A stretch of 64,000 nt of DNA from contig NZ_FTMZ01000018.1 of assembly GCF_900156335.1 (NCBI RefSeq), positions 1 through 64,000 of the forward strand. Direction: 5' to 3'. Each line of letters starts with the position of its first letter. The stretch's first letter is position 1. This document shows positions 1 to 12,750 of this stretch, one piece after another. The position numbers and the translations under genes were made by a program. The stretch is from Sphaerotilus natans. Its GTDB lineage: Bacteria; Pseudomonadota; Gammaproteobacteria; Burkholderiales; Burkholderiaceae_C. The notes beneath the pieces were generated by a model. The model saw only the letters and a program-made list of their open reading frames with translations, had not been told where the DNA came from and searched no databases.

Positions 1-378
1 CACGCCCGCCAGGAGCGCGAGCAGCTCCAGGCCCAGGCCCGCGCCGAGCGCGACCAGGCCCGCGTCGCCATCGACGAGGCCGACACCCGCGCCCGCGACG
101 CCGAGCGCCGCGCCGCCGCCGACATGGACCGCGAGCGCCAGGCCCGCCTGCGCGCCGAGCAGCGCCTGACCGAGCAGACCCGCGACAGCACCGCCCAGCT
201 CGAGCGCGAGCGCGCCCAGGCCCGCGCCGAGCAGCTCGCCCAGCTCGAGCGCCACGCCCGCCTCGAGGCCCGCCTGGCCCAGCTCCAGTCCGAGCGCGAC
301 CGCCTCGAGGCCGAGCGCCTCAGGGCCAGAATGAAAGAACGTCGCGTGCAGCAGCGTTCCCCGTCCTCAAGAAAGTGA
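1..378 (+). CDS. C-terminal part of a coiled-coil protein, possibly KfrA-like (5' end outside window)
   Basis: The frame is open from base 1 and ends at the TGA at 376-378. The first ATG, at 124, is inside the protein, so the true start lies upstream. The 125 visible residues are almost wholly Ala, Arg, Glu, Gln and Leu in a heptad-like pattern without proline until the last residues, which is typical of a long alpha-helical coiled coil. Proteins of the KfrA type (N-terminal DNA-binding domain and long coiled coil, known from plasmids and from phage or defence islands) end this way, but the N-terminal domain is not visible and the assignment is only a suggestion. It lies 95 bp upstream of an XRE-type gene on the same strand. 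Confidence 0.6.
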   Translation, partial: HARQEREQLQAQARAERDQARVAIDEADTRARDAERRAAADMDRERQARLRAEQRLTEQTRDSTAQLERERAQARAEQLAQLERHARLEARLAQLQSERDRLEAERLRARMKERRVQQRSPSSRK

Positions 379-473
379 GTACGAGTTCAAACAGGCACTT
401 TATGCTGTCAATATGATGTCTGGGCAACTTTAATCATTCCGGCCACAGTACGGGCTCCATTGCAGGAGAACCC

Positions 474-1868
474 ATGAGGACAAGGACAGGCAGGCCCACC
501 TTCCAGCTGGACGCGAAACGACTCAAAAGCGTTCGTGAGGAAGCGAAGTTGACGCAGGCGCAGGTGGCCCAGCGCGCGCATGAGCTGCTCAAGAAGCCCC
601 TGGCGACGGCTGACACGGCGACGAAGCACTATCAGAAGATCGAGCGGACCGGTCGCACCAGCCAGGCCATGGCAGACGCCTTGGCCAAGGCGTTGAACAC
701 GACGGTGAACGTGCTGCAAGGCAATGCTCCTGACAAAGGGCCGAGCTTGATCGAAAGCCTGGAGCGCCAGTTTAGACACCAACTGGAAACGGGCGCCAGT
801 CCGGTCTTGCAAGAGGCCTTGGCGCAGGAGGCCCTGGCGCAGCGTGGAGACCCGGATCCGGATCCCGTGCGTACCTTTGCCGAGGAGGTGGCCAAGCGGA
901 TCGAATACATGCAGCTCGGCCCGCCAAGGGACGAACTGGCCCGTCTGGTCGAACTGACCGGCTGGACTGAGGCAGAACTGATGAGGCCCATGAGCATCGA
1001 CGGCCATTGGTTCGTGATGTCCACGATTCACGGCGTGCGCAGGTCGGAAATCGTCCTCGGCGCCGACCATGTGCCGCACTGGATCCAGTATTCGATCCAG
1101 GATGACTGGCCCGACTTCCCCGGAGGATCCATCTGGTCGGACTGCGTCATCACCATGCGCGAGGAATTGCCGTGGCTCCACGTCGAGGTACAGTCCCCGT
1201 CCATCCCGGCCTTGCGCAACACGTTCAGCTTTGTTCGGTGCAGTCCGACCCCGTCGGGTCTTCACTGGACCAATCCGTCGTGGCGCGACCGCTTCTGGCT
1301 GGATGACTCCTTGCGGAAGTGGGCCTTCACCCACGCCAATTTCGTCGTCGGATTCGATGGCCAGAGGGTGCCGAGTGACATGCGCGCTCTTCGCCTGCTC
1401 ATCGAAAGGCCAGACCATGACGATGACGAGCAACTCGCCGTGGTCAAAGGCAACCTGGAAGAACTGTCGGACGACGTTATTGACAACTTCAAAGGTGAAG
1501 GCCAACACGACCTGGTCGTCAGCTGGATCGCCTCTGGGCTCTGGGAGGCAGTGAAGCCGTTGCTCCACGATTGGCCTGCAGACCAGTGGCATGTGAAGTC
1601 AGACACATGCATCGTGGACACATGCATCGTGATCAGCCTCGACGATTCGATCAGGTGGAAAGACTGGTCAGGTCGGGGTGCTCCTCCCCCCAGCGTCGGG
1701 TACCGGCTGCGGCTGGTCGAGCAGCTCGATGATGGCAAGTTCCGGCGCGTGCCCTGGCGGCGATCCAGCGTCGAGTTGATCGCGGAGAGGCTACGGAAAC
1801 GCCTCAGCGAAGAAGCCGAGCGCAATCGCGCATCCAAGGCGCCGCAGGCTGCGCTTCCACCGGCCTAG
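474..1868 (+). CDS. XRE-type helix-turn-helix protein with a large unrecognised C-terminal domain
   Basis: This is a 464-residue protein. Residues about 12-75 read as an XRE/Cro-type helix-turn-helix (LKSVREEAKLTQAQVAQRA, then a recognition-helix region and an LAKALN segment). The remaining ~390 residues match no family I know; they are rich in Trp and acidic residues and end in a basic helix. The ATG at 474 is preceded by a good ribosome binding site (CAGGAGAA, 463-470). Residues DTCIV occur twice in a row because of an exact 15-bp tandem duplication (1602-1631). It lies 89 bp upstream of the viperin gene on the same strand, so it may regulate that gene or act with it (inference). Base composition is visibly less GC-rich than the housekeeping genes of the window. 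Confidence 0.75.
   Translation: MRTRTGRPTFQLDAKRLKSVREEAKLTQAQVAQRAHELLKKPLATADTATKHYQKIERTGRTSQAMADALAKALNTTVNVLQGNAPDKGPSLIESLERQFRHQLETGASPVLQEALAQEALAQRGDPDPDPVRTFAEEVAKRIEYMQLGPPRDELARLVELTGWTEAELMRPMSIDGHWFVMSTIHGVRRSEIVLGADHVPHWIQYSIQDDWPDFPGGSIWSDCVITMREELPWLHVEVQSPSIPALRNTFSFVRCSPTPSGLHWTNPSWRDRFWLDDSLRKWAFTHANFVVGFDGQRVPSDMRALRLLIERPDHDDDEQLAVVKGNLEELSDDVIDNFKGEGQHDLVVSWIASGLWEAVKPLLHDWPADQWHVKSDTCIVDTCIVISLDDSIRWKDWSGRGAPPPSVGYRLRLVEQLDDGKFRRVPWRRSSVELIAERLRKRLSEEAERNRASKAPQAALPPA
1602..1631 (+). repeat. Exact 15-bp tandem duplication inside the XRE-type gene
   Basis: GACACATGCATCGTG occurs twice without a spacer, adding five codons (DTCIV) in frame. It looks like a recent slippage event. 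Confidence 0.9.
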
Positions 1869-1957
1869 CCTCACCGTCTATCTATCCAATTCTTCGAGTC
1901 ATCCGCACGGACGCAGGCCCGTGCTGGCTGAACTCAGCCCATCGATTTGCGATTCAC

Positions 1958-2890
1958 ATGTCGAGACCCGGGTCATCCATGCGCCAAAGCCATGAAAGAA
2001 ACGCCAGCCGCGATGCGCACAGTCCCATCGTCATCAACTGGCATGTGACCGAGAACTGCAATTACCAGTGCGGCTACTGCTACGCCAAATGGTCAGGCCT
2101 GGACCGCAAAGATTTGATCCGCGATCCTGATGCAACAACGGCCTTGCTCCAGTCGCTGCATGCGCACTTCGTATCGGCTGGAGGCGGGCCGAGGCCGCGT
2201 TTGAACTTCGCCGGTGGCGAGCCACTGCTGCATGGCCGTCGTTTGATCTCGGCCATGCGACTCGCACGATCCATCGGGTTCGATGTATCGATCATCACGA
2301 ATGGCAGTCTACTGAACGAGCGCCTGGTGGCCGACCTGGCGCCAGAGCTGTCCTTGTTGGGGCTGAGCATCGACGCCGTGGCGCCCACCCCACTTGCGGC
2401 GATCGGGCGGGAAAACCGACGCGCACGCCAGATTGATCTCGCTGCCTTGGCCGGGCATGTGGACCAAGCCCGGCGCATCAATCCTGCGCTGATGCTGAAG
2501 ATCAACACGGTAGTGTGTTCAGCAAACTGGCAAGAGGACTTGTCGGGTGCGATCAGTGGATTGGCTCCGACGCGGTGGAAGGTGTTGAGGATGCTGCCGG
2601 TCGTCAATCGGAACCTTGAGGTATCCGACATGCAGTTTCGAGCCTTCATCGATCGACACGCTTCGCTGGAGCATGTGATTTCGATCGAAGGCAACGACGA
2701 CATGGTGGGCTCGTACATCATGGTCGACCCGAGCGGGCGCTTCTTCCAGAACCGTGCGGGCGCATCTGGCTATGACTACAGTCCACCGATCCTCGAAGTC
2801 GGGGCCGGAGACGCGTTCGCTCGGATCGGCTGGTCTGCGGTCAAGTTCGCTGGGCGGTACGCGCGCACCTTATCGGTGGTGCCCGCATGA
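1958..2890 (+). CDS. Prokaryotic viperin (radical SAM nucleotide-analogue synthase, antiviral)
   Basis: This 310-residue radical SAM protein has the marks of the viperin (RSAD2) family. They include NWHVTENCNYQCGYCYAKW at about residues 27-45 with the CxxxCxxC cluster motif, FAGGEPLL (the GGE SAM-binding motif), VSIITNGSLL, LSIDA followed by IGRENRR, LKINTVVCSANWQEDL, a TRWKVLR segment and a late SYIMVDPSGRFFQN segment. Each has a clear counterpart in human viperin. Known viperins convert CTP, GTP or UTP to 3'-deoxy-3',4'-didehydro nucleotides that terminate RNA synthesis, and bacterial members protect against phage. The nucleotide kinase gene often found beside bacterial viperins is absent. 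The start is uncertain: neither ATG 1958 nor the in-frame ATG 1979 has a clear ribosome binding site. The C-terminus (FAGRYARTLSVVPA) is shorter than usual after the conserved region. GC content is lower than in the neighbours, suggesting transfer. Confidence 0.88.
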   Translation: MSRPGSSMRQSHERNASRDAHSPIVINWHVTENCNYQCGYCYAKWSGLDRKDLIRDPDATTALLQSLHAHFVSAGGGPRPRLNFAGGEPLLHGRRLISAMRLARSIGFDVSIITNGSLLNERLVADLAPELSLLGLSIDAVAPTPLAAIGRENRRARQIDLAALAGHVDQARRINPALMLKINTVVCSANWQEDLSGAISGLAPTRWKVLRMLPVVNRNLEVSDMQFRAFIDRHASLEHVISIEGNDDMVGSYIMVDPSGRFFQNRAGASGYDYSPPILEVGAGDAFARIGWSAVKFAGRYARTLSVVPA

Positions 2891-2924
2891 GGTATGCCCT
2901 TCTTCGCCGCCCCCCGTCACCCCC

Positions 2925-3040
2925 CAATGCAGCCTCACCCCCCGTGCCGCCGCGCAGCGCGCACGGCGGCTCGGCGCAGTCGATCAGGGCCTCGGCGCGC
3001 TCGAGCGCGCGGGCGGCGTGGCGGCTTCAGCGGTGCGGCG
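2925..3040 (-). pseudogene. Remnant of an Rrf2-family regulator, copy A (with internal deletion)
   Basis: Read on the minus strand this gives RHAARALERAEALIDCAEPP followed by CALRGG, then a jump to TGGEAA. It is nearly identical to copy B at 8701-8912 but lacks about 110 bp covering the middle of the Rrf2 C-terminal part. No start or HTH region is present. It abuts the hairpin repeats that follow, as copy B does. Confidence 0.65.
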
Positions 3041-3170
3041 GGGGCCCTCGCATCCGCGAGGGTGACGGGGCTTTGCGTGGGCCCTCGCCTTCGCGAGGGT
3101 GACGGAAAAGCTTCGTCATCCCCGCGCCCCCTTCCGTCATCCCCGCGCAGGCGGGGACCCACGCAGGCCA
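3041..3170. repeat. Hairpin (REP-like) repeat cluster 1
   Basis: There are two forward units (hairpins CCCTCGCATCCGCGAGGG and CCCTCGCCTTCGCGAGGG, each ending GTGACGG), then a partial and one full reverse unit (CCGTCATCC leading to the hairpin CCCCGCGCAGGCGGGG, then ACCCACGCAG). Forward and reverse units are diverged versions of one sequence in opposite orientations. The cluster fills the gap between the viperin gene and the 3' end of the first TPR gene and may act as its terminator. Confidence 0.85.
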
Positions 3171-3182
3171 CCCGCCCGCCCG

Positions 3183-5780
3183 CTACGGCGTCATCTCCTT
3201 CAACACCTGGCGCCACAGATCCGGCCACGTCTGCTGGTCCGGCGGCAGCTGCCCGCGCTCCTGCAGCCCCTCCAGCACCGCCAGCCCTCGCTCCAGCAGT
3301 GCCCGCCGCTCGGCCTTCGGCAGCGCCGGCGTGTCGAGCTGCGACAGCTGCCAGCAGGACCCCGCCAGGCCCATCTGCCCCACAGCATTGTCGGGGTCGC
3401 GCTCGACCATCCGGCGCGCGACCTCCAGGCTCGCCTGGTAGCTCTTGAGCGCCCCGCCCAGGTCGCCCTGCGCCTGCTGCACTTCGCCCATATTCAAGTG
3501 ACTGACCCAGAGACCGGACTGCCCCAGGAGACTGCCGAGGTCGAGCTCGACCAGTCGGCGCGCGGCCTCCAGGCCCGCCTGGTAGCTCTGGAGCGCCCCG
3601 CCCAGGTCGCCCTGCGCGCTCTGCACATCGCCGATCTTGTTGTGGCTGGCCAAGAGATTGCGCTGCCACTCGGCATTGCCGGGGTCGCGCTCGACCAGCT
3701 GGCGCCGGATCTCCAGGCTTGCCTGGTAGCTCTTGAGCGCGCCGGCCAGGTCGCCCTGCGCCTTCTGCACGTCGCCGATCCGTTGGTGGCTGACCGAAAG
3801 ATCGCGCTGCCACTGGGCCTTGCCGGGATCGAGCTCGGCCAGCCAGCGCCGGCCCTCCTGGCTCGTCTGGTAGCTCTGGAGCGCCCCGCTCAGGTCACCT
3901 TTCGCTCTCTGCTCGTCACCGATCCGTTCGTGCTGGGCGGCGATGCTGCTCTTGCTCTGGGGATGGTCGGGGTCGATCTCGGTCATCCAGCGCCGGCTCT
4001 CCTGGCCCGCCTGGTCGCTCTTGAGCGCCCCGTCCAGGTCGCCCTGCGCCTTCTGCACGTCGCGGATCCGCTCGTGGCTGGCCGCGACACTGTACCGCCA
4101 ACCCGTCTCGCCGGGTTCGCGCTCGGCGAGCGCGCGCACGATCTCCAGGCCCGCTTGGTAGCTCTGGAGCGCGCCAGCCAGGTCGCCTTGCGCCTTCTGC
4201 ACGTCGCCGATCCGGTCGTGCTGGCTCGCGATCATACTCTTGGTGTTGGGGTCGAGCTCGGGGAGCCCGCGCCGGACCTCCAGGCCCGCCTGGTAGCTCT
4301 TGAGCGCCCCGGCCAGGTCGCCCTGCGCCTTGTGCACGTCGCCGATCTTGTTGTGGCTGACCGAGAGATTCTTCTGCCACAGGATCTCGCCGGGATCGCG
4401 CTCGGCCAGCAGGCGTGTGATCTCCAGCAAGGTCTGATAGCTCTTGAGCGCGCCGGCCAGGTCGCCCTGCGCCCTGTGCATGTCGCCGACCGAGATGTGG
4501 TTGAACGAGAGCTCGTTCTGCCACTTGGTGTTGCCGGGATCGCGCTCGACCAGCCGGCGCATGATCTCCTGGCTCGTCTGGTGGTTCTTGAGCGCGCCGG
4601 CCAGGTCGCCACGGGCGCCATCGTGCAGCCTGAGGCCGATATTCTCGTGGCTGACCGAGAGCGCGTGCTGCCACTGGGCGTTGCCGGGGTCGCGCTCGAC
4701 GAGCCGGCGCGCGATCTCCAGGTGCGCCTGGTAGCTCTTGAGCGCCTTGCCCTGGTCGTCCAGCAGGCCATGGCCTTCGGCAATCTTGTCGTGGCTGACC
4801 AGGAGCGCGTTCTGCCACTCGGCGTTGCCGGGGTCGCGCTCGACGAGCCGGCGCACGATCTCCAGGCTCGCCTGGTAGCTCTTGAGCGCCCGGCTCCACA
4901 TCATCAGTGCGCTCTGCGCGTCGCCGGTCCGGATGTGGCTGACCGACAGCGCATGCAACCACGTCGGATCCTCGGGCACCTCCACCAGCCGCCCTTGCGC
5001 GGCCCGCTGCGCCCGCTGAAACGCCTCCAGCGCCCGCGCGCTGCGTCCATCGGCCAGCGCCGCGTCACCCGCCTCGATCAGCCACCAGAACGTTTCCGGC
5101 TCGACATCATCCGCCCGCTCCTCGAACGCCTCGACCAGCAGCCACACGCCCTTGTCCGGGTCCAGCCGCGTCAGCGCCAGGCTGGCCTGCGAGGCCAGCA
5201 CGCTGGCCGCCAGCCGGCGGGAGGCGCGGAGCTGCGCCTTCAGCGGCCGGGCGTCCGCCCGCGCGATCTGCAGCGCCTCGCCCAGCAGCGTGTCCACCTC
5301 GTCGAAGCGCCCTGCCCACCGCGCCGCCTGCGCCTGCGTCACCCGCGCCTGGATCGGCGCCGACGTCACCGGGATCGCCGCCAGCCGCGTCTCCAGCGCC
5401 AGGTGGCTCCGCAGGATCTCGCCCAGCTGCTGCTTCAGCCTGTTCGGCGGCACCTTTCGGCGCGTCAGCGTCTCCATGAACTGCCGCACCGAGCCTTCCG
5501 TGTACGCCGCGCGCTGCGCCTGCTGGTTCAGCTCGGCCACGAACCTGCGCAGCAGCTCGTCTCGCTGCGGGCCCTGCGCCTTCAGCAGCGTCTGCACCTG
5601 CTGCGCGCTGATGCGGTGGTCGTCGATCGTGCCCCCGCTCATCGGGCCGACGGCGACCTGGTTCGATCCCGCCACGCTCGTCTGCGTCTGCGTCTGCGTC
5701 TGCGCGCCGACCGAGCCCGCGCTGGCCAGCGCCGCCAGCAGCAACAGCGGCACCGCCCTCCAGGACGAGGCGCGCGTCAT
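3183..5780 (-). CDS. Exported TPR protein with 11 near-identical 48-residue units (TPR paralogue 1)
   Basis: This is an 865-residue protein. Residues 1-26 form a signal peptide (RAVPLLLLAALASAGSVGAQ), followed by a QTQTQTQT stretch. Residues about 30-300 are an alpha-helical region of unknown function. From about residue 300 there are 11 units of about 48 residues built on GDVQKAQGDLAGALKSYQ, then LEIRRRLVERDPGNAEWQ. The end (SQLDTPALP, then PPDQQTWPDLWRQVLKEMTP) is shared with the two paralogues downstream. TPR arrays are protein-binding scaffolds, and the signal peptide places this one in the periplasm or outside; its partner is unknown. The nearly uniform units point to recent expansion or gene conversion. 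Long open frames on the opposite strand are by-products of the repeated GC-rich codons. Confidence 0.85.
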   Translation of the reverse strand: MTRASSWRAVPLLLLAALASAGSVGAQTQTQTQTSVAGSNQVAVGPMSGGTIDDHRISAQQVQTLLKAQGPQRDELLRRFVAELNQQAQRAAYTEGSVRQFMETLTRRKVPPNRLKQQLGEILRSHLALETRLAAIPVTSAPIQARVTQAQAARWAGRFDEVDTLLGEALQIARADARPLKAQLRASRRLAASVLASQASLALTRLDPDKGVWLLVEAFEERADDVEPETFWWLIEAGDAALADGRSARALEAFQRAQRAAQGRLVEVPEDPTWLHALSVSHIRTGDAQSALMMWSRALKSYQASLEIVRRLVERDPGNAEWQNALLVSHDKIAEGHGLLDDQGKALKSYQAHLEIARRLVERDPGNAQWQHALSVSHENIGLRLHDGARGDLAGALKNHQTSQEIMRRLVERDPGNTKWQNELSFNHISVGDMHRAQGDLAGALKSYQTLLEITRLLAERDPGEILWQKNLSVSHNKIGDVHKAQGDLAGALKSYQAGLEVRRGLPELDPNTKSMIASQHDRIGDVQKAQGDLAGALQSYQAGLEIVRALAEREPGETGWRYSVAASHERIRDVQKAQGDLDGALKSDQAGQESRRWMTEIDPDHPQSKSSIAAQHERIGDEQRAKGDLSGALQSYQTSQEGRRWLAELDPGKAQWQRDLSVSHQRIGDVQKAQGDLAGALKSYQASLEIRRQLVERDPGNAEWQRNLLASHNKIGDVQSAQGDLGGALQSYQAGLEAARRLVELDLGSLLGQSGLWVSHLNMGEVQQAQGDLGGALKSYQASLEVARRMVERDPDNAVGQMGLAGSCWQLSQLDTPALPKAERRALLERGLAVLEGLQERGQLPPDQQTWPDLWRQVLKEMTP
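5679..5702. repeat. Hexanucleotide repeat (CGTCTG)4 in TPR gene 1
   Basis: Four exact copies of CGTCTG encode the QT repeats just after the predicted signal peptidase site. Copy-number change would alter the length of the mature N-terminus without shifting the frame. Confidence 0.85.
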
Positions 5781-5797
5781 GGCCGGGCCCCGCTGCT

Positions 5798-5815
5798 GTC
5801 GTTGTCGTTGTCGTT
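5798..5815. repeat. Hexanucleotide repeat (GTCGTT)3 upstream of TPR gene 1
   Basis: Three exact copies lie 18-35 bp upstream of the ATG (minus strand), in the leader. Copy-number change would alter spacing between any promoter and the start codon. Confidence 0.75.
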
Positions 5816-5834
5816 GATCGTTGCACCGCTCATC

Positions 5835-6080
5835 TTCACGCCCTTTTCGTCATCCCCGCACCCTCTTCCGTCATCCCCGCGCAGGCGGGGACCCACGCAG
5901 GGCACTGCGGTTGTTCATCGTGGGCCCTCGCATTCGCGAGGGTGACGGGCTTTGCGTGGGCCCTCGCCTTCGCGAGGGTGACGGGCTTTGCGTGGGCCCT
6001 CGCCTTCGCGAGGGTGACGGCGCCGTCATCCCCGCACCCTCTTCCGTCATCCCCGCGCAGGCGGGGACCCACGCAGGCAG
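5835..6080. repeat. Hairpin (REP-like) repeat cluster 2
   Basis: The 312-bp gap between TPR genes 1 and 2 consists mainly of these units: partial and full reverse units, a full reverse unit at about 5868-5900, forward units at about 5920-5947, 5952-5982 and 5988-6020, then a partial and a full reverse unit (about 6045-6078). Reverse unit, ~18-bp spacer (TGCGGTTGTTCATCG at its end) and forward unit form an ~80-bp palindrome with ends CCGTCA and TGACGG. Confidence 0.88.
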
Positions 6081-6092
6081 CCCGCTCGCCCG

Positions 6093-7772
6093 CTACGCCC
6101 CCATCTCCTTCAACGCCTGGCGAAACAGATCCGGCCATGTCTGCTTGTCCGGCGTCAGCAGCCTGCGCTGCTGCAGCCCCTCCAGCGCCGCCAGCCCGCG
6201 CTTCAGCAGCGCCCGCCGCTCAGCCCTCGGCAGCGCTGGCGTGTCGAGCTGCGACAGCTTCCAGCAGGACACCGCCAGGTCGGTTTGCCACTGAGCATGG
6301 CTGGGGTCGCGCTCGACCAGCCGGCGCCGAATCTCCAGGCCCACCCGGTAGCTCTTGAGCGCCCCGCCCTGGTCGCCCTGCGCGTGCAGCACATCGCCGA
6401 TCTTGTTGTGGTGGGTCGAGAAATCGCCCTGCCACTCGGCCTGGCCGGGGTCGCGCTCGGTGAGCCGGCGCGCGATCTCCAGGCCTGCCCGGTAGCTCTT
6501 GAGCGCCCCGCCCAGGTCGCCCTGCGCCTTCTGCACGTCGCCGACCAGGCCGTGGCTGGCCGAGAGATTGCGCTGCCACTCCGCATGGCCGGGATCGCGC
6601 TCGACCAGCCGGCGCCGGATCTCCAGGCCCGCCTGGTAGCTCTGGAGCGCCCCGTCCAGGTCGCCCTGCGCGCTCTGCGTGTCGCCGATCAGATCGTGGC
6701 TGACCGAGAGATCGCGCTGCCACTCGGCGTTGTCGGGATCGCGCTCGACCAGCCGGCGCGCGATCTCCAGGCCCGCCTGGTAGCTCTGGAGCGCCCCGGC
6801 CAGGTCGCCCTGCGCCTTCTGCACGTCACCGATCCGGTCGTGGCTGATCGAGAGCTCGCTCAGCCACCGGGCGTTGCCGGAGTCGCGCTCGGTGAGCCGG
6901 CGCCGGCTCTCCAGGCTGGCCTGGTAGCTCTTGAGCGCCCCGCCCAGATCGCCCTGCGTGCGCAGCACGTTGCCGATCAGGTCGTGACTGCGCGAGAAAT
7001 CGTGCAGCCACTGGGCCTGGCCGGGTTCAAGCTCGACCAGCTGGCGCCGGATCTCCTGGCCCGCCCGGAAGTTCTTGAGCGCCCCGGCCAGATTGCCCTG
7101 CGCGCGCAGCACGTCGCCGATCAGGTCGTGGCTGATCGAGAGATCGCGCTGCCACTGGGTATTGCCGGGGTCGCGCTCGACCAGCCGGCGCCGGATCTCC
7201 AGGCTCACCTGGTAGCTCTTGAGCGCGCCGGCCAGCTTGCCCTGCGCGCCCTGCACGTCGCCGACCAGGCTGTGGCTGATCGAGAGCTCGCGCTGCCACC
7301 GGGCATTGCCGGGGTCGCGCTCGACCAGCCGGCGCCGGATCTCCAGGCTCGCCTGGTAGCTCTTGAGCGCGCCGGCCAGGTCGCCCTGCGCCTTGTGCAC
7401 GTCGCCGATCCGGTCGTGGCTGATCGAGAGATCGCGTTGCCACTCGGCGTTGCCTGGGTCGCGCCTGGCGAGCCGGCGCGCGATCTCCATGCCCGCCTGG
7501 TAGCTCTTGAGCGCCCCGGCCAGGTCGCCCTGTGCAAGCTGCTCGTCACCGATCCGGTCGTGGCTGGCCGAGAGATCGTGCAGCGTCTGCTCCCCGGCAT
7601 GGCCCGACCCCGATCCGTCCGGCTGCGCCGCGGCCTGCCCCGCGCTGGCCAGCGCCGCCAGCAGCGCCCCCGTGATCAGCACCCAGCGCGGCAGCCCCGC
7701 TGCGGACTGCGCTGGACTCGGCACCGGCGCTGTTGGCGCGGCTGTGCCTTGGCGTGGCTTGGTCATGGCCAA
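6093..7772 (-). CDS. Exported TPR protein with 9 units (TPR paralogue 2)
   Basis: This is a 559-residue protein from the TTG at 7772, or 557 from the ATG at 7766. A GGGAG seven bases before the TTG makes TTG plausible; spacing to the ATG is 13. A hydrophobic segment at about residues 28-48 (WVLITGALLAALASAGQAAAQ) serves as signal peptide or anchor. Nine 48-residue TPR units built on QGDLAGALKSYQ fill most of the rest. The C-terminal ~60 residues (SQLDTPALPRAERRALLKRG and on) match paralogues 1 and 3. It probably works in the same cell-envelope role as paralogue 1; no enzyme domain is visible. The upstream 78 bp is identical to that of paralogue 3. Confidence 0.85.
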   Translation of the reverse strand: MAMTKPRQGTAAPTAPVPSPAQSAAGLPRWVLITGALLAALASAGQAAAQPDGSGSGHAGEQTLHDLSASHDRIGDEQLAQGDLAGALKSYQAGMEIARRLARRDPGNAEWQRDLSISHDRIGDVHKAQGDLAGALKSYQASLEIRRRLVERDPGNARWQRELSISHSLVGDVQGAQGKLAGALKSYQVSLEIRRRLVERDPGNTQWQRDLSISHDLIGDVLRAQGNLAGALKNFRAGQEIRRQLVELEPGQAQWLHDFSRSHDLIGNVLRTQGDLGGALKSYQASLESRRRLTERDSGNARWLSELSISHDRIGDVQKAQGDLAGALQSYQAGLEIARRLVERDPDNAEWQRDLSVSHDLIGDTQSAQGDLDGALQSYQAGLEIRRRLVERDPGHAEWQRNLSASHGLVGDVQKAQGDLGGALKSYRAGLEIARRLTERDPGQAEWQGDFSTHHNKIGDVLHAQGDQGGALKSYRVGLEIRRRLVERDPSHAQWQTDLAVSCWKLSQLDTPALPRAERRALLKRGLAALEGLQQRRLLTPDKQTWPDLFRQALKEMGA

Positions 7773-7844
7773 TCGGGTACTCCCATCGTTTGCAAGCCAC
7801 TCTACCGACGAGCCCCCCGGGAAAATGTAAAAAATCGCCAGAGG
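7767..7844. repeat. 78-bp exact direct repeat, copy 1 (leader of TPR gene 2)
   Basis: This stretch is identical to 10820-10897. It covers the 5' leader, the ribosome binding site region and the TTG codon of TPR genes 2 and 3. Identity over non-coding bases shows a recent segmental duplication. Confidence 0.9.
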
Positions 7845-7859
7845 CTTTTTTCCGTCGTC

Positions 7860-7975
7860 CCCGCCCCCTTGCCGTCATCCCCGCGCAGGCGGGGACCCAC
7901 GCAGGGCACGGCGGGCGGTGATCGTGGGCCCTCGCCTTCGCGAGGGTGACGGGCTTTGCGGGGGCCCGGGAGTGA
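7860..7975. repeat. Hairpin (REP-like) repeat cluster 3
   Basis: One reverse unit (about 7872-7904), a spacer ending GGTGATCG, one forward unit (about 7923-7951) and a decayed forward unit lie between TPR gene 2 and the toxin gene. Confidence 0.85.
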
Positions 7976-7986
7976 CAGCGCCAATG

Positions 7987-8022
7987 AAAACGCCCTTGCG
8001 GCGCGTGCAGCAAGGGCGTTTT
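7987..8022 (-). terminator. Rho-independent terminator of the yefM-yoeB operon
   Basis: A 13-bp perfect stem (AAAACGCCCTTGC with GCAAGGGCGTTTT) and a 10-nt loop lie 28 bp beyond the toxin stop codon. On the minus strand the stem ends in TTTT. The flanking A and T tracts make it potentially bidirectional. Confidence 0.85.
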
Positions 8023-8049
8023 CTGAAGGATGAGGATGCGCGTGAAAGA

Positions 8050-8364
8050 TCAGCGATCGCCGTAGTGATAGCGGCACTGCACGATGGTCAGCGCGTCCTG
8101 CTCGTAGAGATAGACCAGACGATGCGTCCGGTCGATGCGACGTGACCAGAAGCCGCTCAGGTCGCCACAGAGGGGTTCAGGTTTGCCGGTGCCCTTGAAC
8201 GGGCTCCTCAAGCACTCCTGGATGAGTGCGTTGATGGCGGCCACCGCCACGGCGTTGTGCTGCTGATGCCAGAGATAGTCGTCCCAGGCGTGATCGGTCC
8301 AGCGCAGCGATGCCTCTGCACGGGTTTCAGCCTTGTTGCGGCTTTTCTTGCTGGAGGCGTTCAT
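8050..8364 (-). CDS. yoeB: Toxin YoeB (ribosome-dependent mRNA endonuclease)
   Basis: The protein has 104 residues from the ATG at 8364; a longer frame to 8421 exists but its extra N-terminus is not toxin-like. The family signature is clear: WTDHAWDDYLWHQQ near the start, RSPFKGTGKPEPL, LSGFWSRRIDRTHRLVY and a final CRYHY. YoeB cuts mRNA in the ribosomal A site and is held inactive by YefM. The conserved Arg of SRRID and the HRLVY and CRYHY residues of the active site are all present, so it appears intact. The start codon lies inside the 3' end of the antitoxin gene (38-bp overlap), which implies translational coupling. The tail is basic at the N-terminus (NASSKKSRNKAETR), slightly longer than E. 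coli YoeB. Confidence 0.93.
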   Translation of the reverse strand: MNASSKKSRNKAETRAEASLRWTDHAWDDYLWHQQHNAVAVAAINALIQECLRSPFKGTGKPEPLCGDLSGFWSRRIDRTHRLVYLYEQDALTIVQCRYHYGDR

Positions 8365-8635
8365 CGACGGGATCTTTCGCCGCGGCGAGATCGAAAGGCC
8401 TGCTGCGGGCCTGCCCGGCACGCAGCTGCTCGATGGACTCCATCAGACGCACCGCATTGCGGGGCGAGCCCAGCAGGTGCATCGTCTCCTGCATGCTGTT
8501 GTAGTCCGCGAGGGACAGCAGGACCACATGCTCTCCGTTGACGCGTGACACCACAGTGGGTTCGTGATCGCGGCAGACGGCGTCCATCACGGACTTGAAG
8601 CCGGCGCGTGCTTCGCTGTAAGTGATGATGTTCAT
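8327..8635 (-). CDS. yefM: Antitoxin YefM (Phd/YefM family)
   Basis: The protein has 102 residues and starts MNIITYSEARAGFKSVMDAV, the usual N-terminal DNA-binding and dimerisation domain of Phd/YefM antitoxins, with VVLLSLADYNSMQET following. The C-terminal third is charged and presumably disordered, the part that wraps YoeB. It is the first gene of the operon and overlaps yoeB. An operator with two TGTAC(A/G) cores lies 45-62 bp upstream of its start, in agreement with YefM autoregulation in E. coli. Confidence 0.93.
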   Translation of the reverse strand: MNIITYSEARAGFKSVMDAVCRDHEPTVVSRVNGEHVVLLSLADYNSMQETMHLLGSPRNAVRLMESIEQLRAGQARSRPFDLAAAKDPVDERLQQEKPQQG

Positions 8636-8679
8636 GGGGTGCTCTGGTTTGCGTCGTGTCAGGGTTCAGGGACAGATTC

Positions 8680-8697
8680 TGTACAACATCCTGTACG
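8680..8697. promoter_or_regulatory. Probable YefM-YoeB operator
   Basis: TGTACA (8680-8685) and TGTACG (8692-8697) lie 12 bp apart centre to centre. The known E. coli yefM-yoeB operator has TGTACA cores with the same spacing. It is placed just upstream of the antitoxin start. Confidence 0.75.
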
Positions 8698-8700
8698 CGG

Positions 8701-8912
8701 TCAAGCGCCCCGATGCAGCCTCACCACCACCTCCCCCGTGCCGCCGCCCATCGCGTCGGCCAGGGTGTGGCGGTCGAGCTCGGCGTAGAAGGCGTCCTCG
8801 GCCTGGTCGAGCAGGCCCTTGAGCGTGCAGGCGCCGCGCAGCACGCACGGCGGCTCGGCGCAGTCGATCAGGGCCTCGGTGCGCTCGAGCGCGCGGGCGG
8901 CGTGGCGACTTC
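8701..8912 (-). pseudogene. Remnant of an Rrf2-family (iron-sulfur) regulator, copy B: C-terminal part only
   Basis: The minus strand reads in frame as ALERTEALIDCAEPPCVLRG, then ACTLKGLLDQAEDAFYAELD, RHTLADAMGG and on to a TGA at 8701-8703. This is the C-terminal region of an Rrf2/NsrR/IscR-type regulator: three cysteines of the cluster-binding type, CxLKGxL and the DRxTLAD motif. The N-terminal winged helix and the start are gone; at the 5' side the reading frame runs into hairpin repeats. A shorter copy of the same remnant lies at 2925-3040. I judge it non-functional. Confidence 0.75.
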
Positions 8913-8919
8913 AGCGGCG

Positions 8920-9135
8920 CGGCGTGGGCCCTCGCATCCGCGAGGGTGACGGGGCTTTGCGTGGGCCCTCGCCTTCGCGAGGGTGACGGGAACGGGGCGA
9001 GGGTGACGGCGCCGTCATCCCCGCGCCCTTTTCCGTCATCCCCGCGCAGGCGGGGACCCACGCAGGGCACGGCGGGTGGTGATCGTGGGCCCTCGCATTC
9101 GCGAGGGTGACGGGAAAGCTTCGTCATCCCCCCCC
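8920..9135. repeat. Hairpin (REP-like) repeat cluster 4
   Basis: Forward units lie at about 8926-8952 and 8957-8990, then a truncated forward unit, partial and full reverse units (about 9010-9066) and a forward unit (about 9083-9112). With copy B of the Rrf2 remnant this fills most of the 630-bp gap upstream of the PEP-CTERM gene. The last ~110 bp (9150-9265) are more AT-rich and probably hold that gene's promoter, though I cannot point to clear -35/-10 boxes. Confidence 0.85.
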
Positions 9136-9265
9136 GGCACACCCGCTTTTCCGGCTTTCAACACCCCCCGCGGTCACGGGAGTACCGGTTTTTTTCGCAG
9201 AAATCGCAATGTAGATTGATCCATGTCCATTTCGGGACAAGATTTTTTACATCGAGAGTCTGCGC

Positions 9266-9844
9266 ATGAAACTCATCCGAAACCAGAAACCCCTGATCGC
9301 CGTGGCCGCCGCCGCACTGCTGGGTATCACCAGCCCGGCCCAGGCCGATACCTTCTCGGTCGATTTCAGCGGCACGTTCAGCTATGCGAACCCGTTCAGC
9401 CCGCCGCTCGGCTCGCCGCTGGACGTCGACATGGAAGTCACCACCGCCGGCGACGCCAGCAGCCCCGAGGCCATCACCGACATCACCGGCACCATCCGCG
9501 GCAAAACCATTTCCAGCTTCCAGAACGGCATCAGCGCGACCTTCTGGTTCGATGGCTCCACCGGCCTGGGCCATTTCAGCAGCATGGGCCTGTACGCCTA
9601 CACCAGCGACGGGCTGTGGAATCTGCGGGACACGGAAGCCATCCTGCTGGGCCCGATTGGCAACTCGGGCTACAGCTCCAGTCCGGCCACCAACATCTGG
9701 TCGATCAGCCCCGTCGCACCGGTGCCCGAGCCCGGCAGCATCGCGATGATGGTCGCCGGCCTGGGCCTGCTGGGCCTGCAGGCTCGCCGCCGCACCCGCC
9801 CGGCCGCAGCAGCCACCCCCCAGGCCGACGCGATCGCGGCGTGA
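9266..9844 (+). CDS. PEP-CTERM sorting-domain surface protein
   Basis: This is a 192-residue protein. Residues 1-28 are a signal peptide (IAVAAAALLGITSPAQADTF). The middle is a beta-rich, Gly/Ser/Thr-rich region without a recognised domain. Near the end stands VPEPGSIAMMVAGLGLLGLQ, then RRRTR: the PEP motif, membrane helix and basic tail of the PEP-CTERM signal recognised by exosortase A. A 20-residue Ala-rich extension follows the Arg cluster, which is longer than usual. Such proteins are exported, processed and linked to exopolysaccharide or floc matrix. No exosortase gene is in the window, but an O-antigen-ligase-like protein of the sort used with exosortase is at 58199-59542. Confidence 0.88.
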   Translation: MKLIRNQKPLIAVAAAALLGITSPAQADTFSVDFSGTFSYANPFSPPLGSPLDVDMEVTTAGDASSPEAITDITGTIRGKTISSFQNGISATFWFDGSTGLGHFSSMGLYAYTSDGLWNLRDTEAILLGPIGNSGYSSSPATNIWSISPVAPVPEPGSIAMMVAGLGLLGLQARRRTRPAAAATPQADAIAA

Positions 9845-9849
9845 TGGCG

Positions 9850-10060
9850 GCGCGTGGGCCCTCGCATCCGCGAGGGTGACGGGCTTTGCGTGGGCCCTCG
9901 CATCCGCGAGGGTGACGGGGCTTTGCGTGGGCCCTCGCCTTCGCGAGGGTGACGGGAACGGGGCGAGGGTGACGGGGTCGTCATCCCCGCGCTCCTCTTC
10001 CGTCATCCCCGCGCTCCTCTTCCGTCATCCCCGCGCAGGCGGGGACCCACGCAGGCCACC
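9850..10060. repeat. Hairpin (REP-like) repeat cluster 5
   Basis: Three full forward units (about 9852-9881, 9886-9917 and 9922-9955) and a truncated one follow the PEP-CTERM stop. Three tandem reverse units come next, the first two truncated, the last complete (ending about 10056), just before the 3' end of TPR gene 3. Confidence 0.88.
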
Positions 10061-10066
10061 CGCCCG

Positions 10067-10825
10067 CTACGGCGTCATCTCCTTCAACTTCTGGCGTAAC
10101 AGATCCGGCAACGTCTGCTGGTCCGGCGGCAGCTCCCCGCGCTCCTGCAGCCTCTCCAGCACCGCCAGCGCGCACTCCAGCAGTGCCCGCCGCTCAGCCC
10201 TCGACAGCGCCGGCGTCTCGAGCTGCGACAGCGCCGCGCCCAACGCCACCAGGCCCACCTGCCCCACAGGATTGTCGGGCTCGCGCTCGGCGATCCGGCG
10301 CGCGACCTCCAGGCCCGCCTGGCAGCTCTGGAGCATCCCGTCCAGGTCGCCCAGCACCTCATGCACTGCGCCCATATTCAAGTGACTGAGCAAGAGCTCG
10401 AGCTGCCACTCGGCATGGCCGGGGTCGCGCTCGAACAGCCAGCGCCGGATCTCCAGGTTCGCCTGGTGGATCTTGAGCGCGCCGGCCCAGTCGCCCTGCT
10501 CGCACAGCACGTCGCTGATCAGGCCGTGGCTGATCGAGAGCTCGCACTTCCACCAGGCGTTGTCAGGGTCGCGCTCGGCCAGCCGGCGCCGGATCTCCAG
10601 GCCCGCCTGGTAGCTCTTGAGCGCGCCGGCCAGGTCGCCCTGCACAAACTGCTCGTCGCCGATATGGTCGTGGCTGACCGAGAGATCTTGCAGCGTCTGA
10701 TCCGTCTGATCCTCCCCGGCCTGGCCCGACCCCGATCCGTCTGGCTGCGCCGCTGCGGGCGGGGCTGAACTCGGCACTGGCGCTGTTGGCGCGGCTGTGC
10801 CTTGGCATGGCTGGATCGTGGCCAA
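10067..10825 (-). CDS. Shortened TPR protein with 3 units, no signal peptide (TPR paralogue 3, possibly decaying)
   Basis: It encodes 252 residues from a TTG at 10825. It has the same start region as paralogue 2, but the ATG used there is ACG here (10817-10819). About 23 residues with the hydrophobic segment are missing in frame (PVPSSAPPAAAQPDGSGSG). Only three 48-residue TPR units remain, with more substitutions (for example GDLDGMLQSCQAGLEVA). The shared C-terminal region (SQLETPALSRAERRALLECA onward) is complete. If translated from the TTG, which has GGGAG at good spacing, the product would stay in the cytoplasm. It could be a pseudogene in an early stage. Confidence 0.7.
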   Translation of the reverse strand: MATIQPCQGTAAPTAPVPSSAPPAAAQPDGSGSGQAGEDQTDQTLQDLSVSHDHIGDEQFVQGDLAGALKSYQAGLEIRRRLAERDPDNAWWKCELSISHGLISDVLCEQGDWAGALKIHQANLEIRRWLFERDPGHAEWQLELLLSHLNMGAVHEVLGDLDGMLQSCQAGLEVARRIAEREPDNPVGQVGLVALGAALSQLETPALSRAERRALLECALAVLERLQERGELPPDQQTLPDLLRQKLKEMTP

Positions 10826-10897
10826 TCGGGTACTCCCATCGTTTGCAAGCCACTCTACCGACGAGCCCCCCGGGAAAATGTAAAAAATCGCCAGAGG
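10820..10897. repeat. 78-bp exact direct repeat, copy 2 (leader of TPR gene 3)
   Basis: It is identical to 7767-7844. Differences begin exactly at the codon that is ATG in gene 2 and ACG in gene 3. Confidence 0.9.
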
Positions 10898-10936
10898 GCA
10901 AGCCGTCTCGTCACCGCACTGCAGTAGAACCCCCCC

Positions 10937-12040
10937 ATGTACCGCCGCGCCTTCCTCGCCACCCCCCTGCTGCTGACCCCGCCGCTCCACGCTGCAACGC
11001 CAGGCCCCCCAGCCGCCCCCACCTCCCTCGACACCCGGCTCGGCGCCATCGCCACCGGCGCCGACAACCTCCACGGCGTCGTCGTCGAGCGGGCCGGCGT
11101 GGTGCTGGGCGAGTGCTACCGCGACGGGCACGACCGGCTCACCACCGCCCTGTGGTCCACCCCGACGCACTTCGATGCCGACACGCTCCACGATGTGCGC
11201 TCCATCAGCAAGTCGGTCGTCTCGCTGCTCTGGGGCATCGCGCAGGCGCGCGGCCTGGTGCCGCCGCTGGACACGCCTGCCCTCGACCTGCTGCCCGCGC
11301 TGGCCGACCTGCGCCGCGACGGGCGCGAGGCCATCACCCTGGCCCACCTGTTCGACATGACCAGCGGCCTGGCCTGGACCGAACCCGGCCGCCTCGGCCT
11401 GCTCGACGACGACGAGTTGCGCCTCTACTGGCGCGCCGACCCCGCCCGCTTCGTCTTCGAGCGCCCGCTCGTCAGCGCCCCCGGCACCCGCTGGCAGTAC
11501 CACAGCGGCGGCACCGCCGTGCTCGCCCAGCTGCTCGCCGAGCGCACCGGCCAGCCGCTGCCCGCGTGGGCCGACGCCGTGCTCTGGGCGCCGATGGGCA
11601 TCACCCGCTGGGCGTGGACCGCCGACTTCCGCGACCGGCCGCTGGCCTTCACCGGGCTGCGCCTGCGCCCGCGCGACCTGGCGCGGCTGGGCCGGCTGGT
11701 GCTCGGTCAGGGGCGCTGGCAGGGCCGCGAGGTGGTGCCCGCCGCCTGGCTGGCCGAGTCCCTGCAGCCGCGCGTGGACGTGCCGCCACTCGGCCCGGTG
11801 CTGACCGGACTGCGCTATGGCCGCTTCTGGTGGCATGGACAAATCCCCGACCCGCGCCCGGCACACCGCGACAGCCCCCTGTCCTGGACCGCCGGCTTCG
11901 GCAACGGCGGCCAGCGGCTCTACCTGGTGCCGGCGCTGGACCTCGTGGTCTCGGTGTCCGCCGGCGCCTACGGGGAGCCGGCGGTGAATGCGCGCGTGGA
12001 CCGCTTGCTGCGGGATGTGGTGGACAGCGTGTCGGGCTGA
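10937..12040 (+). CDS. Exported serine hydrolase of the beta-lactamase (class C / esterase) family
   Basis: The protein has 367 residues. A Tat-like or Sec signal peptide comes first (MYRRAFLATPLLLTPPLHAA). The SxxK motif is S89-I-S-K92 in VRSISKSVVSLLWG; YHSGG at about residue 189 matches the YxN/S region; GFGNGG near residue 320 takes the place of the KTG/HxG motif. The 'LAHLFDMTSGL' segment is typical of 6-aminohexanoate-dimer hydrolases and EstB-like esterases rather than true AmpC enzymes. I expect a periplasmic esterase, amidase or peptidase; resistance is not implied. It is divergent from TPR gene 3 (111-bp gap containing the 78-bp repeat). Confidence 0.85.
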   Translation: MYRRAFLATPLLLTPPLHAATPGPPAAPTSLDTRLGAIATGADNLHGVVVERAGVVLGECYRDGHDRLTTALWSTPTHFDADTLHDVRSISKSVVSLLWGIAQARGLVPPLDTPALDLLPALADLRRDGREAITLAHLFDMTSGLAWTEPGRLGLLDDDELRLYWRADPARFVFERPLVSAPGTRWQYHSGGTAVLAQLLAERTGQPLPAWADAVLWAPMGITRWAWTADFRDRPLAFTGLRLRPRDLARLGRLVLGQGRWQGREVVPAAWLAESLQPRVDVPPLGPVLTGLRYGRFWWHGQIPDPRPAHRDSPLSWTAGFGNGGQRLYLVPALDLVVSVSAGAYGEPAVNARVDRLLRDVVDSVSG

Positions 12041-12054
12041 AGGGGATGTCGAGG

Positions 12055-12228
12055 GGCGTCATCCGGGGACCCACGCAGGCCACGACGGTTGTTCATCGTG
12101 GGCCCTCGCATTCGCGAGGGTGACGGCGCCGTCATCCCCACCCTTCCGTCATCCCCGCGCAGGCGGGGACCCACGCAGGGCGCGGCGGGTGGTGATCGTG
12201 GGCCCTCGCATCCGCGAGGGTGACGAGA
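12055..12228. repeat. Hairpin (REP-like) repeat cluster 6
   Basis: A truncated reverse unit (ends CACGCAGG about 12079), a spacer with GGTTGTTCATCG and a forward unit (about 12098-12125) are followed by a reverse unit (about 12146-12180), a GGTGGTGATCG spacer and a forward unit (about 12197-12224): two R-spacer-F palindromes in a row. Confidence 0.87.
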
Positions 12229-12236
12229 ACGGCGAT

Positions 12237-12533
12237 TCACCCCGTGATCTCCTCCCACAGATCCCGCCACGTCGGGTTGCTGGCTTCGATCAGCCGGATC
12301 TTCCACTCGCGCCGCCAGTGCTTGAGCGCCTTCTCGCGCGCGATGGCCTCGGGCATCGTCGCGTGCGACTCGTACCAGACCAGGCGCTTGACGCCGTGGC
12401 GCGCGGTGAAGCCGTCGGCCAGCCCTTGCCGGTGCTGCCAGACGCGCTGCACCAGGTTGGAGGTCACGCCGATGTACAGCGTGCCCAGGCGCTGGCTGGC
12501 CAGCAGGTAGACGGCGGGACGGCGCGGGTCCAT
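12237..12533 (-). CDS. GIY-YIG superfamily nuclease-like small protein
   Basis: The protein has 98 residues from the ATG at 12533; the frame stays open further upstream but only through repeat sequence. AVYLLAS and TLYIGVTSNL are the two strands of the GIY-YIG motif (here VYL-YIG); RVWQHRQG holds the conserved Arg-His region, then WYE and EAIAREKALKHWRREWK complete the fold of the small UPF0213/YhbQ-like proteins. A catalytic Glu is expected near the end of the fold. The family has DNA endonuclease folds, but functions are mostly unknown. It is bracketed by hairpin repeat clusters 6 and 7, only a few bases from each. Confidence 0.85.
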   Translation of the reverse strand: MDPRRPAVYLLASQRLGTLYIGVTSNLVQRVWQHRQGLADGFTARHGVKRLVWYESHATMPEAIAREKALKHWRREWKIRLIEASNPTWRDLWEEITG

Positions 12534-12594
12534 GCCCGGCAGTGGAGCGCGCCGGCCGTGGCGGGGGGATCCCGCTGGAGGGGGATGCGGGGGG

Positions 12595-12750
12595 GGCTGG
12601 CGTGGGCCCTCGCATCCGCGAGGGTGACGGGCTTTGCGTGGGCCCTCGCATCCGCGAGGGTGACGGGCTTTGCGTGGGCCCTCGCCTTCGCGAGGGTGAC
12701 GGTGCTTTTTTCCGTCATCCCCGCGCAGGCGGGGACCCACGCAAACCACC
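12595..12750. repeat. Hairpin (REP-like) repeat cluster 7 (last in the window)
   Basis: Forward units lie at about 12600-12628, 12634-12664 and 12670-12702, with a reverse unit at about 12713-12745. No further copy is seen from 12,780 to the end of the window. Confidence 0.87.

Follow-up and report, generated by a model that had tools for sequence, protein, structure and literature searches.

How is a bacterial viperin switched on, and why do some of these enzymes stand beside a hicA gene that has no hicB? Both points are raised as open in Gerdes 2024 (PMC10865869), in which the regulation of RNases adjacent to prokaryotic viperins (pVips) is also posed as a question and in which hicA beside pVip is already published. 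The locus described here has a pVip directly behind a gene for a large HTH protein, and a HicA-like open reading frame (ORF) that follows pVip in a related species is absent. The window, i.e. the whole stretch of DNA that was analysed, is the left 64 kb (64,000 nucleotides) of contig C26 in a genome of 4.63 Mb, and the contig starts at window base 1. The features of the locus are the following.

1 to 378, + strand: 3' end of a coiled-coil ORF that is cut by the contig edge, a doubtful part of the system; present at the same place in Sphaerotilus sulfidivorans with 90% DNA identity.
474 to 1868, + strand: gene for a 464-aa protein that starts with an XRE-type HTH and continues into a long C-terminal region of no known family, a putative regulator or sensor (sub-threshold Pfam matches, PHROGs, the S. 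sulfidivorans partner and relatives at loci L046 and L068).
1958 to 2890, + strand: pVip, a predicted radical SAM nucleotide dehydratase (NF038283, PADLOC PDLC02903, fold, residues and tree).
2036 to 2083, + strand: [4Fe-4S] motif region NWHVTENCNYQCGYCY with C34, C38 and C41 (sequence and viperin alignment).
2887 to 2895, + strand: remaining first three codons of a HicA-like ORF, the rest of which is absent (DNA alignment with the S. sulfidivorans locus, L005).

A sequence-only reading of this DNA had claimed a viperin at 1958-2890 from its motifs, and the region does encode a genuine prokaryotic viperin. The ORF codes for 310 aa without a frameshift, it contains the quoted motifs, and its profile scores are far beyond chance. 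The NCBIfam model NF038283 matches with 317.4 bits (cut-off 180, E 7.2e-95), whereas the MoaA model TIGR02666 gives 49.8 bits, far below its cut-off of 284.05. At E<=0.01 the protein matches 51 NCBIfam families, and among the best 25 of the 51 only viperin_w_prok is above its own cut-off. The top PADLOC model is PDLC02903, for viperins without kinase association (299 bits, E 5e-90), with the model for kinase-associated viperins behind it at 269 bits. When the PDB was searched with phmmer, the viperins of Nematostella, mouse and Trichoderma were in the lead. The motifs had been described as shared with human RSAD2; they are indeed present in the ORF, but the match to RSAD2 was shown with the mouse and not the human protein (E 1.3e-25 to the mouse RSAD2 chains).

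The nearest named relative is the pVip of S. sulfidivorans (L005), which is 92% identical at the protein level, and the same protein occurs in genome G006 of the window's genus; by these two matches the host is most likely a Sphaerotilus species. The first Met of the S. sulfidivorans protein is the equivalent of window residue 8, thus the true start of the window pVip is probably at 1979 rather than 1958. The other end had been called short, which did not hold. The alignment to NF038283 reaches model position 280 of 281 and the C-terminal ends of the two Sphaerotilus proteins coincide, therefore an unusually short C-terminus is ruled out.

Mouse viperin numbering is used for the active site, and the roles of the residues are presumed to be those seen in mouse viperin structures. 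The three cluster cysteines (equivalents of mouse C84, C88 and C91) are identical in 22 of 22 aligned viperins, as are the equivalents of N77, N222, W246, K247 and Y302. The R245 position is occupied by R or K in all 22 proteins and the K220 position by K in 21 of them. The cluster and nucleotide-site set of the window protein consists of C34, C38, C41, N27, K181, N183, R206, W207, K208 and Y253, and the position of mouse K319 is Y272, likewise in most aligned pVips. An AlphaFold2 model built from eight sequences (pLDDT 76.5, pTM 0.79) was compared to the PDB with Foldseek, where viperin chains take every one of the first 30 places (best E 3.9e-18, TMq 0.70); the first non-viperin in the list is a sactipeptide maturase. 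In a tree of 25 rows the window pVip groups with those of S. sulfidivorans and G001 at 99/95 support, among the pVips and not inside a MoaA or peptide-modifying group. The MoaA-like outgroup row, whose MoaA identity was judged by eye, has a branch of 9.19 and is placed among the viperins away from the side of the window protein; since the outgroup is not on one side in either of two trees and the branches are long, its placement is unstable and only the nearest clade is used for conclusions. Viperins as a single clade were not rejected (p-AU 0.154). Profiles, fold, conserved residues and tree all support the viperin reading. The enzyme itself is an ordinary pVip, and the unusual part is its neighborhood.

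Within the genus, 4 of 13 genomes have a pVip match above the cut-off. Sampling at class level gave 5 of 369 genomes and at phylum level 4 of 398, and each count includes the window's own genome. The pVips of G005 and G001 are only 39% and 59% identical to that of the window; judged by these identities, the four pVips of the genus do not form one vertical lineage. Of 72,556 plasmid records 14 match at E<=1e-12, no pVip match was found in phages at E<=1e-8, and none was found in viral contigs. The spot had also been described as lower in GC, and this is the case, as the values are 0.607 for pVip and 0.622 for the XRE gene versus 0.694 for the whole window. The patchy distribution of pVip and the lower GC would be compatible with horizontal transfer.

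Other pVip loci show features of their own. The pVip of L032 is located near a Cmr1 fragment and a Csx1/CARF gene, that of L007 near Cas1 and that of L048 near Drt1a; CRISPR repeat arrays near the pVips of relatives were seen by eye only. Two viperin genes adjoin in G244 (L052, 6092-8006). The second, at 7062-8006, is an intact ORF of 315 aa with 61 bits to a PADLOC pVip model, that has lost the middle cluster Cys as well as the RWK and KxN sites and has GDE in place of GGE; it is likely a pseudo-enzyme beside an active-looking pVip. G624 has a broken second viperin remnant (L055, 571-1148) with its own HicA-like ORF behind it, about 11 kb from an intact pVip. A conserved ORF of about 111-117 aa is located directly 3' of pVip in L051 (5750-6085), L053 (5986-6321) and L057 (7006-7359). 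It contains repeated CxxC...WHL pieces, and no convincing Pfam match was found for the two that were scanned.

The XRE-type gene that had been noted beside pVip is present upstream on the same strand at 474-1868. Its N-terminal HTH matches Pfam models below their curated cut-offs (HTH_31, 22 bits versus 27), PHROGs regulators and, weakly, CapH, and no known family was matched outside the HTH. No HicB domain was matched in Pfam or NCBIfam, and a profile search of the PDB gave nothing at E<=1. The AlphaFold2 model of the protein, made from two sequences, is poor (pLDDT 49) and gave nothing at E<=0.001 in Foldseek. In S. sulfidivorans a copy with 77% protein identity is located directly before pVip. 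In each of the two Sphaerotilus species the genes are thus adjacent and share a strand; 89 nt separate them in the window, counted to 1958, and 14 nt in L005. Simple Nei-Gojobori dN/dS values between the two species are 0.48 for pVip and 0.64 for XRE. By these values and the protein identities, both genes are judged to be under constraint, XRE less tightly, and neither is broken. No sigma-70-like promoter was found in window 300-3300, where 0.6 were expected, and no inverted repeat precedes XRE in the window; L005 has one 7-nt pair there.

Four members of the XRE family were found, ranging from 425 to 481 aa. Two of them are relatives with 35-36% identity, one on a Thauera humireducens plasmid (L046) and the other in G1027, a Burkholderiales genome of another family (L068), and neither has a pVip beside it in the stretches examined. 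The genome samples that were searched overlap. Three matches were obtained in 100 relatives, one of which is weak and covers the HTH part only (G049, E 8.7e-4), one in the 321 genomes of the class (the window's own), two in the 250 of the order (the window's own and G1027), and one plasmid record matched. With the Thauera protein as query no match was found in phages, and viral contigs also gave none. XRE accompanies pVip in 2 of 21 pVip loci, both from one genus; since the other 19, that of G001 included, lack it, XRE does not qualify as a general partner of pVip.

The flanks of the locus were also inspected. The S. sulfidivorans copy of the coiled-coil ORF has no Pfam match. A 28-base palindromic (REP-like) element occurs in eight exact copies in window 3136-12741; they lie between TPR-repeat genes, always on the + strand, and none would be expected by chance. 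Window 3183-11866 contains three large genes on the - strand that belong to a single TPR-repeat family, and in S. sulfidivorans this family flanks the XRE-pVip segment on either side. A probable YefM/YoeB toxin-antitoxin pair, named by eye, is located at 8050-8635 on the - strand. At L068 (4853-7094, G1027) a dGTPase-type gene (PADLOC 252 bits) and a nucleotidyltransferase-like ORF are directed towards the XRE/HicA-like pair. The nucleotide kinase often linked to pVip had been reported as missing, and clustering with the kinases of L048 and L056 found no VakA-type kinase among the ORFs of window 1-12,000, the region upstream of the contig edge being out of view. A gene for an ankyrin-type protein of about 900 aa is divergent from pVip in 5 of 21 pVip loci (L006, L009, L010, L011 and L056) and matches PADLOC PDLC02908 in both loci that were scanned, L009 and L056. 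At L073 (G1027) such a gene is divergent from a HicA-like ORF without pVip. A relationship between the XRE and ankyrin-type proteins was not detectable with hhalign (probability 0.2%).

The gene order in S. sulfidivorans is XRE, pVip and a HicA-like ORF of 75 codons, the start of which overlaps the pVip stop. Comparison of the window and L005 DNA shows that about 270 bases are missing after three retained HicA-like codons. The ORF is present in G001 too, whose pVip is the next to branch off in the tree, therefore its loss in the window lineage would be the simpler reading. A HicA-like HMM was built on seven pVip-linked ORFs from loci without XRE and searched in six frames against 69 loci including the window (485,792 bases, many loci overlapping); its best score in the window is only 7.1 bits. 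A ten-row profile (A4) gave nothing at E<=1 in the window's genome, G000, and one match each in G006 and G001, both at pVip.

The HMM gave 21 rows above 60 bits, corresponding to 11 distinct places. Eight of these follow a pVip, one follows the pVip remnant in L055, and the XRE relatives L046 and L068 account for the other two. Seven places match by construction, as their ORFs were used to train the HMM, which does not apply to L005, L046, L068 or the additional copy in L055. A HicA-like ORF is thus downstream of XRE in three of four XRE loci (L005, behind pVip, L046 and L068). Twenty pVip loci have DNA that can be read past the gene, L010 being the one that ends inside pVip, and in eight of them (L005, L006, L009, L011, L032, L047, L054 and L055) a HicA-like ORF comes after pVip; L009 and L011 belong to different species within one genus. 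The ORF is without annotation in the gene table of the Thauera record. Pfam HicA_toxin is passed by one of ten ORFs (L055, 29.3 bits, cut-off 27), three score below it and six have no HicA match, and the best match in a PDB profile search is HicA3 at E 0.55. The label HicA-like is used because of the one ORF that passes, the family alignment and the published link between hicA and pVip. Going by the matches found, the family also occurs away from pVip and XRE. G1027 has a second copy, at L073, beside the ankyrin-type gene mentioned above. A search of 307 class genomes gave four matches, one of them a pVip locus and three (L074, L075 and L076) beside other large ORFs matched by neither the XRE nor the ankyrin HMM. 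A weak match in G005 (L077, 30 bits) is likewise without a pVip, XRE or ankyrin gene.

How might such a locus work? The best explanation, to which we give a probability of about 0.78, is that pVip makes ddhNTPs, XRE controls the locus and the HicA-like ORF has been lost. This explanation starts from the pVip identity, the conserved residues, the gene order, the conserved linkage and the absent ORF, all observed, and adds co-transcription, regulation by the HTH protein and toxicity of the HicA-like protein, which we infer. Its support also includes the Cmr1/Csx1, Cas1 and Drt1a genes near the pVips of L032, L007 and L048. It is weakened by the absence of a promoter match and of an inverted repeat before XRE, by the 19 pVip loci that lack XRE, by the poor XRE model and by the HicA-like ORFs that have other neighbors. 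The substrate of the enzyme is most likely at least one ribonucleoside triphosphate, which would be dehydrated to its 3'-deoxy-3',4'-didehydro form (ddhNTP), and such products would terminate phage RNA chains. The chemistry and the anti-phage role are proposed for the window pVip by analogy, because both are described for the viperin family in PMC10732462, PMC10865869 and PMC12926258; no applicable rule for predicting the substrate of a pVip was found in the literature searched. XRE and pVip are most likely co-transcribed, and control of the locus by XRE, as a repressor or sensor, is likewise most likely; it is possibly a partner of the HicA-like protein. Upon phage infection pVip would be made, following repression or sensing by XRE. 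The overlapping genes of S. sulfidivorans would yield the HicA-like protein together with pVip, and the window may be a derivative that dropped the HicA-like arm and retained the HTH protein and pVip, both intact.

It is possible, if doubtful, that XRE instead pairs with the HicA-like protein, as its antitoxin-like partner or its sensor, with pVip as cargo between them and the window XRE as a leftover. The HicA-like ORF follows XRE without pVip in L046 and L068 and follows pVip in L005, and the HMM, which was trained without any XRE locus, gives these three 98.5, 61.7 and 87.7 bits, respectively, while the next best in the 69 loci is 11.0. However, there are only four XRE loci, the gaps between XRE and the ORF in L046 and L068 (239 and 287 nt) are wide for such a pair, and the L068 ORF is altered in its second half. 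Most ORFs of the family also miss the Pfam HicA cut-off. In addition, an XRE gene that is intact without the ORF, at a dN/dS of 0.64, is not expected for long of a pure leftover.

A broader proposal, equally tentative, is that a large HTH sensor or antitoxin and a HicA-like RNase form a module that accepts a viperin, that the ankyrin-type protein is a second kind of partner and that the window is a variant. Phage sensing would then set free a toxin that blocks translation and, with it, the enzyme that makes chain terminators. The XRE-type protein would found an undescribed partner class for pVip-type HicA-like proteins, and the ankyrin-type protein would be an unrelated second partner in the same slot, with pVip and the HicA-like ORF in L006, L009 and L011 and without pVip in L073. 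The window would be a natural variant with viperin and sensor and no HicA-like protein.

Does pVip work alone, with XRE as an unrelated chance neighbor in one Sphaerotilus lineage? XRE is confined to a single genus among the pVip loci (2 of 21), it was not found in the genome of G001, which has the nearest other pVip, and the two genes diverge at unlike rates, all of which would fit. This is nevertheless unlikely, as order and strand are kept in two species although XRE is only 77% identical, both genes are intact, and two distant XRE relatives have a pVip-type HicA-like ORF downstream. It is very improbable that pVip is decaying after loss of the HicA-like ORF. The ORF is gone and a dN/dS of 0.48 is not very low, but the enzyme is full-length with all catalytic residues kept, no frameshift and 92% identity to the S. 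sulfidivorans protein. A radical SAM enzyme of the MoaA, NifB or peptide-maturase type, suggested by weak scores to many such families (e.g. the 49.8 bits to MoaA), is ruled out for practical purposes, since those scores are far under their cut-offs, the viperin score is six times higher, and fold and conserved residues point to viperin.

For the favored explanation, in which XRE controls a pVip locus that lost its HicA-like ORF, the hicA neighbor of viperins is known, and the link to an XRE-type HTH family is apparently undescribed. No report of an XRE-type HTH protein as partner of pVip or of a HicA-like protein was found in the literature searched. A conserved HTH protein that occurs with a HicA-like ORF, with or without a viperin, is a concrete candidate for the regulator or antitoxin that is missing. 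Its loci come in three arrangements (HTH-pVip-HicA-like, HTH-HicA-like and HTH-pVip), which amount to a natural experiment.

The window protein resembles the pVips of NF038283 and PADLOC PDLC02903 in sequence, fold, cluster motif and nucleotide-site residues, with no difference in the enzyme itself. PDLC02911 describes pVip with a VakA kinase, as in L048 and L056, and PDLC02908 describes pVip with an ankyrin-type neighbor, as in L006, L009, L010, L011 and L056; neither partner was found beside the window pVip. CapH, a CBASS regulator (PADLOC PDLC04142), is similar to XRE in the HTH part only (18.5 bits), the long C-terminal part is not shared, and no CBASS gene is nearby among the ORFs read. 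The HicB antitoxins (classes 1-8 in Gerdes 2024) are comparable in that a regulator-like protein adjoins a HicA-like gene, and in classes 3 and 4 the HicB protein includes an HTH or RHH (PMC10865869). XRE differs from them as its HTH is at the N-terminus of a protein of 425-481 aa in which no HicB domain was found. The closest comparison is with the hicA-pVip loci, class 10 in Gerdes 2024. S. sulfidivorans is alike, with the HicA-like ORF directly behind pVip. The window differs in that it has no HicA-like ORF and its pVip comes after an HTH gene from an undescribed family, and the same HTH family also goes with a HicA-like ORF without pVip in two loci.
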